Made by a program: the position numbers and the translations under genes
NCBI RefSeq assembly: GCF_030388325.1
Contig: NZ_CP103794.1
Location: forward strand, 868,001 to 932,000
DNA from: Flavobacterium johnsoniae
GTDB taxonomy: Bacteria > Bacteroidota > Bacteroidia > Flavobacteriales > Flavobacteriaceae
Direction of reading: 5' to 3'
DNA length: 64,000 nucleotides
Notes under the pieces: model-generated
Told to the model about the DNA's origin: nothing
What the model saw: only the letters and a program-made list of their open reading frames with translations
Databases searched by the model: none
Shown: piece after piece, positions 47,493-51,471 of the stretch
How the letters are laid out: every line of letters starts with the position of its first letter
Position numbering within the stretch: position 1 is the stretch's first letter

Positions 47493-48932
47493 ATGGTATT
47501 GAGCAGATTTTGGCTAACGATTTTTATTTCTTCGATTATTTTTATTGTATTCAGCTTATTTACTGCCAATACTTATACGATTGATTCTGTTTTGAATGGA
47601 AAAAAAGACGATCCTGTTTTAGTTTCAGAAAAATATATTGAAGAACTTCCTGCTTTTATTAAAGACAGCATCAAGAAAGCGCCAGACCAAACCATGATTA
47701 TCAATCGTGATACGCTAAATGCCGACACGACTTATGTTTACAAAAATAAAACTGTAAAAATCTTCAGCGGACTTCAAAAATCTGACGGTCTTCTTCCAAC
47801 TTGCAAAAGTACTTTAGTTGATTTAATTCTGCCTTTAATTGCCTATTTAGCCTTTTTCTGCGGATTGATGGAACTTTTAATTGTTTCTGGAGCATCTGGA
47901 AATTTAGCTAAAGCTTTAAGTCCGGTTTTTGTGAAAGTGTTTCCAAGCATTCCTAAAAATCACCCTTCAATATCTTATATGACATTGAATTTTGCTGCCA
48001 ATTTCTTGGGATTAGATTCGGCTGCAACGCCATTTGGCTTAAAAGCAATGGAAAGTTTACAGGAAATAAATCCCGATAAAGACAAAGCCAGCGATGCACA
48101 AATTATGTTTATGTGTCTTCACGCTTCTGGATTAACTTTAATTGCAACTTCAATCATTGGATACCGCGCTGCTGCAAACGCAAGCAATCCAGCCGATGTT
48201 ATGCTTCCGTGTATTATCACTTCGTTTATTGGTACAATCGCCGCTTTTTTAATTGTCGGAATTAAACAAAAAATCAATTTCAAAAGTGCTTCACTTTTGA
48301 TTGGTCTTATGGGCTTAATTGCTGCAATTGTTGGTTTATTGATGTATGTTAATCACTTAGATTTAATTGGTAAAAACTATTTTACTTCTAATCTTTCGGG
48401 ATTAATATTATTGACAATTATCGTTTTCACTCTGATATTTTCTTTCAGACACGAACAAAAGTTTAAAGATGCCAACACAACTGTTTTTGACACTTTTGTT
48501 GTTGGAGCAAACAATGGTGTTAAAACTGGCGTAACGATTTTTCCTTATGTTTTAGGAATGTTAGTTGCAATTTCTCTATTCAGAAACAGCGGTTTATTTG
48601 AGATTATCAGCGACGGAATAGGATTTATCTTTTCGAATTTAGGTGTAAGCAAAGAAATTACAAATGCGCTTCCAGTGGCGATGTTGCGTCCGTTTAGTTC
48701 TGCTGGATCAAGAGGTTTTTTAATTGATTCTATGAACACCTTTGGAGCCGATTCTTTAACAGCAAGATTAAGCAGTATTTTCCAATGTAGTGCCGAAAGT
48801 ACATTTTATGTAATTGCAGTTTATTTTGGTTCTGTAAACATTAAAAACACGCGTTACGCTTTGGGTACAATGCTTTTGGTTGATTTGATCTGCGTAATTA
48901 CGGCGATTTTTGTAGCGACTTGGTTTTTTTAA
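47493..48932 (+). CDS. Nucleoside-recognition/spore-maturation-like membrane protein (SpmA-SpmB fusion)
   Basis: 479 residues, about ten membrane segments in two Gate-type halves. Half one: LIAYLAFFCGLMELLIVSGASGNLAKALSPVF and NFAANFLGLDSAATPFGLKAMESL. Half two: FVVGANNGVKTGVTIFPYVLGMLVAISLFR and ALPVAMLRPFSSAGSRGFLIDSM. This is the order of SpmA then SpmB of Bacillus, here in one chain, with a charged loop (about 35-95) in between the first helices. In a non-spore-former the role is unknown, possibly solute transport. Confidence 0.85.
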   Translation: MVLSRFWLTIFISSIIFIVFSLFTANTYTIDSVLNGKKDDPVLVSEKYIEELPAFIKDSIKKAPDQTMIINRDTLNADTTYVYKNKTVKIFSGLQKSDGLLPTCKSTLVDLILPLIAYLAFFCGLMELLIVSGASGNLAKALSPVFVKVFPSIPKNHPSISYMTLNFAANFLGLDSAATPFGLKAMESLQEINPDKDKASDAQIMFMCLHASGLTLIATSIIGYRAAANASNPADVMLPCIITSFIGTIAAFLIVGIKQKINFKSASLLIGLMGLIAAIVGLLMYVNHLDLIGKNYFTSNLSGLILLTIIVFTLIFSFRHEQKFKDANTTVFDTFVVGANNGVKTGVTIFPYVLGMLVAISLFRNSGLFEIISDGIGFIFSNLGVSKEITNALPVAMLRPFSSAGSRGFLIDSMNTFGADSLTARLSSIFQCSAESTFYVIAVYFGSVNIKNTRYALGTMLLVDLICVITAIFVATWFF

Positions 48933-48957
48933 AATATTGTCCTTACACATAAACACA

Positions 48958-49120
48958 AACTGGACTGAAGTCCAGCCCTACAATATGGGTTGAGCCGTTG
49001 GCTCATTTTTCCAGCATTTGTAGAGCTGGACTTTATTCATTTGCATAATATTATCAAAATACCAAATATAAAGTTCCGCAGGAACGATTCATTTTGTAGG
49101 GCTGGACTTCAGTCCAGTTC
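48958..49120. repeat. Left compound palindromic element flanking the RAYT gene
   Basis: Ends (48958-48984 and 49091-49120) are inverse copies built from CTGGACTGAAGTCCAG, itself a palindrome, then CCCTACAA. Inside lies a small hairpin GAGCCGTTGGCTC and the word CCGCAGGAACG. The element at 49680-49781 is its reverse complement, without about 65 internal bases. Confidence 0.92.
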
Positions 49121-49190
49121 AATATAATGTGATAAAATATTTTTTGTAAGAATTTTTATATATTTACAACAGATTTTAATCGTTATAAAT

Positions 49191-49652
49191 ATGTCAAACA
49201 TCTTTCACCAAGTTTATATACAAGTCGTTTTTGCAGTTAAATACAGAGAAGCCTTAATTACAAATGATGCCAAATCTAAAATATTAAGTGTAATAGGAAA
49301 TTTAATAAATGAAACAGGCTGTAAAACCATAATCGTAAATGGAACTGAAGATCATATTCATTGTCTTCTAGCCCTTAAACCAACTGTTTCTGTTTCAGAT
49401 TTGATGAAAGTTGTAAAGGGTAAATCTTCAAAATATATCAATGACAATAAATTAACAAAGTACAAATTTGAGTGGCAGGAAGGTTACGGAGTCTTTTCAT
49501 ACAGTAAATCTCATATTGATGCTGTTTATAAATATATCGAAAATCAAGAAGAGCATCATAAAAAGCAAAGTTTTAAAGATGAATATTCTTCTTTTTTAAA
49601 TAAATACGATACGAAATTTGACGAAAGGTGCCTTTTTGAAAATTTAATATAA
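49191..49652 (+). mobile_element. REP-associated tyrosine transposase (RAYT, IS200-like TnpA)
   Basis: 153 residues, a Y1 HUH transposase. HUH motif His55-Ile-His57 in TEDHIHCLL; helix with WQEGYGVFSYSKSHID; nucleophile region VYKYIENQEEHHKKQ, where Tyr115 of the YIxNQ context is the likely catalytic Tyr. Full length and intact. There is no TnpB. It sits between two mirrored palindromic elements (48958-49120 and 49680-49781), the hallmark of RAYT/REP systems, in which a domesticated transposase processes single-stranded hairpins rather than moving itself. Confidence 0.9.
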
Positions 49653-49679
49653 TTCCCATAATTATATCTTAACAATCTA

Positions 49680-49781
49680 AACTGGACTGAAGTCCAGCTC
49701 TACAAAATAAATCGTTCCTGCGGATCTGAAAAAGAGCCAACGGCTCGGGCTATATTGTAGGGCTGGACTTCAGTCCAGTTT
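49680..49781. repeat. Right compound palindromic element flanking the RAYT gene
   Basis: Reads as the reverse complement of the left element: AACTGGACTGAAGTCCAG end, CGTTCCTGCGG, GAGCCAACGGCTC hairpin, TTGTAGGGCTGGACTTCAG end. Shorter by the internal segment. The arrangement is inverted copies on both sides of the transposase. Confidence 0.92.
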
Positions 49782-49866: not shown

Positions 49867-51471
49867 ATGATTGATTTTATATACCAAGATCCATATCCGA
49901 TCTTAAAGGACGATACGCAGTACCGCAAAATCACTTCTGATTTTGTGAAAGTTGAGCAATTTGGAGAACGCGAAGTTTTAACCGTTGATCCAAAAGGTTT
50001 AGAATTATTGGCTGAGGAAGCTTTAACAGATGTTTCGTTTATGTTGAGAACGACACATTTGCAAAAACTAAGAAAAATTTTAGACGATCCAGAAGCGACA
50101 GACAATGATCGTTTTGTGGCTTACAATTTACTTCAAAATGCTTCTGTCGCTGCCGAAGGTCAGTTGCCAAGCTGTCAGGATACTGGAACAGCAATCGTAA
50201 TGGCTAAAAAAGGAGAAAGCATTTTTACAGGTGTTGATGATGCAGAATGGTTAAGCCGAGGAATTTTCAATACATACCAAAAAAGAAACTTACGTTATTC
50301 GCAGATTGTTCCGATTTCGATGTTTGAAGAAAAAAATTCAGGATCAAATCTTCCAGCGCAAATTGATATTTATGCTAAAAAAGGAACTTCTTACGACTTT
50401 TTGTTTATGGCAAAAGGCGGAGGATCTGCAAACAAAACTTACTTATATCAACAGACAAAATCTTTATTGAATGAAAAATCATTAGACGAATTCATTCGCA
50501 CAAAAATCAAAGATTTAGGAACTTCTGCTTGTCCTCCGTATCACTTAGCATTAGTAATTGGTGGAACTTCAGCTGAAGCAAACTTAAGTGCTGTTAAAAA
50601 AGCTTCTGCAGGATATTATGACAATCTTCCAACTACAGGAAATATGGCTGGTCAGGCTTTTCGCGATCACGAATGGGAAGAAAGAGTTCAGAAAATCTGT
50701 CAGGAAAGTGCAATTGGAGCGCAATTTGGCGGAAAATATTTTACGCACGATGTTCGTGTGATCCGTTTGCCGCGTCACGCTGCTTCTTGTCCAGTTGGAT
50801 TGGGAGTTTCTTGCTCTGCTGATAGAAATATCAAAGGAAAAATTACGAAAGATGGAATTTTCGTTGAGCAATTAGAAGTAAATCCGAAACAATTTTTACC
50901 AGAAACAGCTCCGCATTTAGAAGCGCCTGTAGAAATTGATTTAGATCAGCCAATGGCAGATATTTTGGCTAAATTATCTCAATATCCAGTTAAAACTCGT
51001 TTAAAACTAAACGGAACTGTAATTGTTGCTCGAGATATTGCTCACGCAAAAATCAAAGAATTGTTAGACGCTGGAAAACCAATGCCAGAATATTTCAAAA
51101 ATCACCCAGTATATTACGCTGGTCCTGCAAAAACTCCAGACGGAATGGCTTCAGGAAGTTTTGGACCAACAACTGCGGGACGTATGGATGTTTATGTTGA
51201 TGAATTCCAAAAGAATGGCGGAAGCATGATTATGCTAGCAAAAGGAAACCGTACTAAACAAGTTACAGACGCCTGCAACAAATACGGCGGATTCTATTTG
51301 GGTTCTATCGGAGGTCCTGCAGCTATTTTGGCTCAAGATAACATTCTTAAAGTTGAAGTTGTTGATTTTGAAGAATTAGGAATGGAAGCTGTTCGTAAAA
51401 TCACAGTAAAAGATTTCCCTGCATTCATAATTACGGATGATAAAGGAAATGACTTCTTTGCTAATTTGTAG
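49867..51471 (+). CDS. fumA: Class I fumarate hydratase
   Basis: 534 residues, iron-sulfur type fumarase of the TCA cycle (fumarate to malate). N-terminal alpha domain with [58 protein letters not shown], and the Cys of CPVGLGVSC for the [4Fe-4S] cluster. The beta part has [16 protein letters not shown] and [11 protein letters not shown]. About the size of E. coli FumA. Monocistronic; ends in a large hairpin. Confidence 0.95.

Follow-up and report, generated by a model that had tools for sequence, protein, structure and literature searches.

We analysed a stretch of 64,000 nucleotides (nt) from Flavobacterium johnsoniae (contig NZ_CP103794.1, positions 868,001 to 932,000), which as a whole we call the window. 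In it the gene of a Y1 HUH protein (49191-49652) lies between two compound palindromic elements. Judged from sequence, the gene and these elements probably belong to a system that resembles a REPtron (REP, repetitive extragenic palindrome) and is built on a class-1 TnpA, from the IS200 side, of subclass 1.2. The protein would be a conserved nuclease of single-strand hairpins and would act in trans on mini-elements without a gene.

The two elements occupy 48957-49120 (164 nt) and 49679-49781 (103 nt) and are inverted copies of each other, with arms of 53 nt matching at 91% and of 67 nt matching at 82%. The upstream element exceeds the downstream one by 61 nt and contains a decayed third palindrome (49028-49038) with GTAG at 49020-49023. 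Each element is a pair of opposed units, and a unit consists of a long palindrome, 2 nt, GTAG, 10 nt and a short hairpin. In both elements the two outer 16-nt palindromes (A) have their GTAG tags facing inward and enclose two short hairpins with a 5-bp stem and a 3-nt loop, B (GAGCC/GGCTC) and C (GTTCC/GGAAC). The features are as follows.

48957 to 49120, no strand: upstream compound element (REPIN-like; REPIN, REP doublet forming hairpins), in the order A, B, decayed palindrome, C, A
48960 to 48975, minus strand: A palindrome CTGGACTGAAGTCCAG, tag on its inner side
48978 to 48981, minus strand: CTAC (GTAG of the minus strand), 2 nt from A and 10 nt from B
48992 to 49004, minus strand: B hairpin, GAGCC-GTT-GGCTC
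49020 to 49038, plus strand: decayed third tag and A palindrome (GTAGAGCTGGACTTTATTC)
49073 to 49085, plus strand: C hairpin, GTTCC-GCA-GGAAC, 10 nt ahead of GTAG
49096 to 49099, plus strand: GTAG tag of the upstream element
49102 to 49117, plus strand: A palindrome CTGGACTTCAGTCCAG
49191 to 49652, plus strand: Y1 HUH protein of 153 amino acids (aa), TnpAY1 subclass 1.2 (H55, H57, W95-Q96, Y115---Q119--H122-H123)
49679 to 49781, no strand: downstream compound element (REPIN-like), in the order A, C, B, A
49682 to 49697, minus strand: A palindrome of the downstream element
49700 to 49703, minus strand: CTAC (GTAG of the minus strand), 10 nt from C
49714 to 49726, minus strand: C hairpin with one stem mismatch, GTTCC-TGC-GGATC
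49734 to 49746, plus strand: B hairpin, GAGCC-AAC-GGCTC, 10 nt ahead of GTAG
49757 to 49760, plus strand: GTAG tag of the downstream element
49763 to 49778, plus strand: A palindrome of the downstream element

The A palindrome, CTGGACT(GA/TC)AGTCCAG, is present at the four sites listed and nowhere else in the window, and each of its four tags (GTAG or CTAC) is separated from A by 2 nt and from a B or C hairpin by 10 nt. When the window was scanned for a perfect 5-bp stem with a 3-nt loop, at least three G or C per arm and GTAG 10 nt on, three cases were found, every one inside the two elements. An earlier note on this DNA had described an intact Y1 HUH gene between elements that are reverse complements of each other apart from their interior, which we confirm. 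It had also divided each element into three smaller palindromes. All of these were located, GAGCCnnnGGCTC at 48992-49004 and 49734-49746, GTTCCnnnGGAAC at 49073-49085 and its downstream counterpart GTTCCTGCGGATC at 49714-49726; the single stem mismatch of the last had gone unmentioned, and the upstream element has its decayed palindrome in addition. A comparison with Rfam families gave 12 matches up to an expectation value (E) of 1, none reaching the gathering score and most of them microRNA precursors, and we took these as chance.

The open reading frame (ORF) is intact and matches Pfam Y1_Tnp with 100.2 bits (cut-off 23). The protein scores above the cut-off of the IS200/IS605 model (82.1 bits against 55) and below that of REP_Tyr_transpos (NF047646; 24.6 bits against 80), the model of the RAYTs (REP-associated tyrosine transposases). 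It has Y115---Q119--HH, whereas RAYT or TnpA-REP proteins of class 2 have Y---NP. Together with DH[IV]H and WQ this is the signature of TnpAY1 subclass 1.2, which a survey defines by Y---Q--HH and for which its subclass description lists no REP (PMC6006769). We gathered relatives in two sets. The genus set held 115 ORFs, 110 of them full length and 108 with both flanks; the phylum set was taken from the best 80 of 579 named loci from species genomes, headed by F. cutihirudinis, F. denitrificans and F. piscis, and 74 of these had both flanks. Y...Q..HH is present in 102 of the 110 and in 73 of the 74. Each of 15 proteins in a diverse set matches both models (E at most 0.001), with a best E of 7.7e-25 for IS200 and 1.3e-9 for RAYT. 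By sequence, the protein matches eight solved structures, transposases of IS608, ISDra2 and similar, and the RAYT structure is not among them. The fold predicted from 15 sequences (mean predicted local distance difference test score 84.9) has structures of the IS200/IS605 TnpA type as its matches 1 to 29, with RAYT structure 4er8 at rank 30, although TM-scores are only about 0.6 and root-mean-square deviations large. Motif, profile model and fold fit a TnpAY1 subclass 1.2 protein of the IS200 side and do not support a RAYT by descent. The protein would work like that of a REPtron, yet by its Y---Q--HH and its score against the RAYT model it stands outside RAYT membership.

The perfect A palindrome is found at seven places in the 5.32-Mb source genome, four of them within 250 nt of the gene. 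The reversed palindrome, used as a control with up to one mismatch allowed, gave zero matches in this genome. Of the remaining copies one is part of an element at 2066383-2066483, where the partner palindrome is CCGGACTTCAGTCCGG, and two are solitary at 566026 and 4775049; none of these three has such a gene beside it. A diverged copy at 1865553 has preserved its stem through changes on both sides. None of the five other Y1 matches of the genome is close to a copy of A. The gene is therefore flanked by a REP-like family of its own with copies, single and paired, elsewhere in the genome, more than the two copies genome-wide that by the earlier note would have spoken against it. The note's proposal of a Flavobacterium RAYT with its own REP family is supported in the second half and not in the first.

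Across 150 Flavobacterium genomes the tagged palindrome gave 702 matches, a few of them palindromes counted on both strands, and the reversed control 16. All 22 genomes with an intact gene of clade A, the clade of the window gene, have at least two tagged palindromes, and 19 of the 22 have at least five (median 8, maximum 85). Among the 126 genomes lacking the gene, 16 have at least two and 5 at least five (median 0). The association has a Fisher p of 2e-16, not to be taken literally since the genomes are related. Two genomes with a broken gene were set apart from the comparison (G121, 73 matches; G066, 10). Bare palindromes with AAA/TTT flanks were seen at five places in 4 of the 150 genomes. 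In G075, G108 and G136, which have 17 to 19 tagged palindromes each, no intact clade-A gene was found, possibly because the gene was lost after the palindromes had spread; G108, with 19 matches, has no subclass 1.2 gene at E up to 1e-10.

We found that hairpins also stand beside other subclass 1.2 genes. A hairpin of any kind occurs within 350 nt of 101 of the 108 Flavobacterium genes and 71 of the 74 genes from across the phylum. In the genus set 208 paired flanks held 407 hairpins near the gene and 30 far from it, and in the phylum set 144 paired flanks held 361 and 42. The genus flanks contain 710 hairpins with loops of 3-4 nt, both strands counted, against 32 per shuffled set. Stem types vary by protein group, for example ATCCC, GCTCC, ACCCC, GTCGC and CGGTT. 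A stem is common to 98% of gene pairs with at least 80% protein identity and to 1% of those at 30-40%, and stem and protein divergence are correlated (Mantel r 0.48, p 0.001; 162 of 182 genes). Downstream (3') of oriented hairpins with 3-4-nt loops, GTAG peaks at an offset of 10 in the genus set (46 seen, 6.2 expected) and of 9 in the phylum set (42 seen, 5.5 expected). RTAG is at 9 or 10 nt in 273 of 325 hairpins, all preselected for RTAG 5-12 nt away. Palindromes with 2-nt loops show a GTAG peak at 2 nt in both sets (11 and 9 cases), and short hairpins show none there. In the window this distance is 2 nt, in keeping with GTAG REPs, whose tag is at or near the 5' foot of the palindrome. Relatives of the subclass at E up to 1e-10 were present in 137 of 296 sampled Bacteroidota genomes; flanks were examined for the 108 and 74 genes.

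Among neighbouring tagged palindromes at most 250 nt apart, 61 of 113 pairs face inward; the 113 come from fetched loci between which overlaps partly remain. There are 50 distinct inward-facing pairs. Inverted and dispersed, these pairs are arranged as REPINs are. The dispersed elements have no gene, measure roughly 100-150 nt and typically consist of opposed units, each a short hairpin, about 10 nt, GTAG, 2 nt and a long palindrome. Hairpins of the GAGCC type and of the GTTCC or GTCCC type occur together in 45 of the 50 pairs when up to two stem mismatches are allowed and in 26 when none is. Usually one unit has the GTTCC-type hairpin and the other the GAGCC-type, so that the two ends are unequal, as in IS200/IS605 elements. 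Of the REP positions, 49 of 50 fall outside ORFs of at least 100 aa, while 74% of random positions fall inside such ORFs.

We aligned 28 of the 50 element pairs, leaving out cores longer than 112 nt or within 3 differences of another; the rows were by construction turned to put the C hairpin ahead. In 17 of the 28 the 7-nt arm of the outer palindrome is not the same at both ends. The search pattern had fixed TTGTA/TACAA and part of the palindrome, so the constancy of those positions is no evidence, and pairs fixed by it were excluded from the scores. For the free pairs of the local hairpins 93.4% of cells are paired, with 82 changes on both sides and a score of 0.442 against 0.211 in shuffles. 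Since B stems vary on one side only, the covariation supports A and C and not B. We also considered a cruciform of the whole element, which seems less likely: its end-to-end pairing is less well kept than the local hairpins (78.1% of cells, score 0.373).

The clade-A gene looks fixed: it is present in low copy and under strong purifying selection, and the majority of its copies share a chromosomal location. Of the 23 clade-A genes, 16 have at least one of the following neighbours within 1.5 kb.

47493 to 48932, plus strand: upstream neighbour, marker of the conserved locus, presumably a transporter gene
49867 to 51471, plus strand: downstream neighbour, marker of the conserved locus, which we take to be a fumarase gene

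The ratio of nonsynonymous to synonymous substitution (dN/dS) of the clade-A gene is 0.04-0.10 in nine pairs. In the source genome we found no near-identical gene-bearing copies of the kind that mark insertion sequences (IS) of the IS200/IS605 family (subclass 1.1); low copy number and conservation like that of a host gene are traits that the window gene shares with RAYTs.

Comparison of orthologous sites revealed changes in the elements. Immediately downstream of the gene the order is C-B in the source genome and in G015 and B-C in F. cutihirudinis and F. denitrificans, and G079 has a bare palindrome there, shorter by 81 bases and with halves that match on either side. As the interior at one orthologous site can face both ways or be absent, the mirrored order varies, and we rejected it as a defining trait. 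The element at 2066384 is also present at the same site in G015 and absent in G103, though other changes adjoin the site in G103; G079 and G114 carry other DNA at the site matching G000:C1:2066384, which may be prone to insertion. For the element of G015 at locus L159 no clean empty site was found, the source genome having about 1.45 kb of other DNA there. Where the source genome has a bare palindrome at 566026, G015 and G083 have half an element, and the compared segments of G108, G103, G114 and G079 have none. At 4775049 G015 has a full element, with a clear right junction and a left junction resting on few bases; G083 has other, partly decayed units, and G079 and G108 were mapped on one side only. 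These losses and flips fit protein-driven excision and inversion, and also slippage or recombination between identical palindromes.

Two further genes of subclass 1.2 are present in the source genome, with 43% and 37% identity to the window protein. One lies at G000:C1:4209980-4210429 on the minus strand (L009) and is flanked by hairpins that differ from those of the window (GTTCC-AGC-GGAAC and CGTCCC-TAC-GGGACG, some then followed by CGGTAGA). Some of its hairpins start with CGTC, and a link to CGTC REPs, which have been reported to lack a dedicated transposase (PMC3733652, in part), would be worth testing. The other lies about 3 kb beyond the end of the window (L010, G000:C1:935000-935410) and has on its downstream side CCCACGGTT-nn-AACCGTGGG palindromes, one with ATAG before it. 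Weaker Y1_Tnp matches are at G000:C1:164638, 2683999 and 3638660 (L011, L012 and L013; 37.6, 23.6 and 21.9 bits, of which only 21.9 falls short of the cut-off). Locus L027 holds another dispersed inverted repeat, GTCATTCCGAGGAACGAGGAATCT and its complement, and L159:62-302 has many short matches in the source genome.

How might such a system work? The protein would bind hairpins while the DNA is single-stranded, which probably happens at replication forks. What is known of IS200/IS605 and TnpA-REP suggests, by analogy, that it may read the short hairpin on the single strand (in clade A the long hairpin as well), with RTAG as a guide or cut signal and Tyr115 as the putative cutting residue. The mini-elements would be excised, flipped or copied in trans while the gene stays in place, and the two unequal short hairpins could be the equivalents of left and right ends.

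Model and fold put the protein on the IS200 side and hairpins border the gene, as they would if this were an ordinary IS200/IS605 insertion sequence whose ends, the compound elements, move with the gene. We consider this quite unlikely. The divergence of the genome's other subclass 1.2 genes leaves no recent copies, 16 of the 23 clade-A genes keep the same neighbours at low dN/dS, the three distant palindromes have no gene, and each supposed end is itself two-ended. Some other enzyme might spread the palindromes, the gene merely lying between two of them; the source genome has three further PF01797 matches, and G108 has its palindromes with no subclass 1.2 gene at E up to 1e-10. This too has little probability in our judgement, given that every genome with the gene has at least two palindromes and few others do, that no other Y1 match is near a copy of A, and that stems differ between protein clades. 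The hairpins could instead be RNA or DNA elements of the host, such as terminators, their interiors dropping out or turning round through slippage or recombination at identical palindromes, with no part for the protein. The units are intergenic, and loss and inversion between flanking palindromes require no transposase, so this account could still cover losses and flips alone. It leaves the RTAG spacing, the link to the gene and the clade-specific stems unexplained, and as a whole we hold it to be just as improbable.

Several observations weigh against a REPtron-like system acting in trans. The contrast between near and far flanks is inflated in so far as far flanks are, as is probable, mostly coding. 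Perfect hairpins on both sides accompany only 48 of the 108 Flavobacterium genes (51 of the 74 phylum-wide), and the same stem is present on both sides of 43 (39 phylum-wide). Genes and genomes are not independent, and stems shared at orthologous loci partly reflect common descent. Five of the 126 gene-less genomes (G051, G056, G075, G108 and G136) have at least five matches, and the hairpins of clade B are barely dispersed (32 matches in 20 of 150 genomes, control 13). Arrays of a single type exist (L063, C only), so that two unequal hairpins are not universal. The long-range pairing from end to end also covaries above shuffles (0.373 against 0.252). Three of the nine pairs have dS above 1, which makes their dN/dS ratios rough. 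Binding, cutting, movement and the roles of the ends are, finally, inferred from sequence.

With these points weighed, we still regard the REPtron-like system as probable. More tentatively, and with somewhat more doubt than confidence, we propose that subclass 1.2 may have arisen when an IS200/IS605 transposase was domesticated separately from the RAYTs and in parallel with them. An insertion sequence would have come apart, giving a fixed gene that acts in trans and mini-elements without a gene, with two unequal hairpin ends around facing GTA tags, excisable or flippable between the outer palindromes, which diversified with their enzymes across Bacteroidota. If this is true, insertion sequences have turned more than once into a fixed gene and trans-acting repeats, and the many proteins that nature has paired with hairpin stems open the reading of hairpins by these enzymes to test.

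A literature search covering listings and abstract openings gave no described repeats for subclass 1.2 and no RAYT-REP system in Flavobacterium; a 2025 REP survey has Flavobacterium in a table, and its main text mentions neither RAYT nor TnpA (PMC12306157). GTAG repeats are reported, in the part of the source used, from Proteobacteria, Cyanobacteria, Chloroflexi and the PVC group (PMC3733652). Like RAYT or TnpA-REP with GTAG REPs and REPINs (TnpAY1 class 2; REPtrons), the system has a low-copy conserved Y1 gene with its own hairpin family, and GTAG-tagged palindromes dispersed between genes as inverted pairs. Unlike theirs, the window protein is of class 1. The guide tetranucleotides of TnpA-REP are described, in the section at hand, as lying 5' of the palindromes (PMC8266576); here the tag stands 2 nt 5' of the long palindrome, a REP-like placing seen in clade A, and it also follows the short hairpin at 9-10 nt on the 3' side, the arrangement found in clades other than A. 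The fold, the catalytic motifs and an element with unequal hairpin ends are shared with IS200/IS605 insertion sequences (IS608, ISDra2), in which, unlike here, gene and hairpin element are not separate units; here the gene looks fixed. TIRtrons or TIRYTs and subclass 2.6, with its 'atypical secondary structures', likewise combine a Y1 gene with non-canonical flanking repeats and genomic copies (PMC3733652, PMC6006769), but their proteins are described as RAYT-like or of class 2, and the passages concerned describe no compound architecture. With TnpAY1 subclass 1.2 itself the protein shares Y---Q--HH, DH[IV]H, WQ, a length of about 150 aa, low copy number and occurrence in Bacteroidetes (PMC6006769). 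The survey's description of that subclass gives it no REP-like flanks, a description and not the feature that places proteins in it, whereas we find hairpins beside 101 of the 108 genes in the genus set and 71 of the 74 in the phylum set. Repeats, in another geometry, appear to be present in a transposase branch that was on record as having none.
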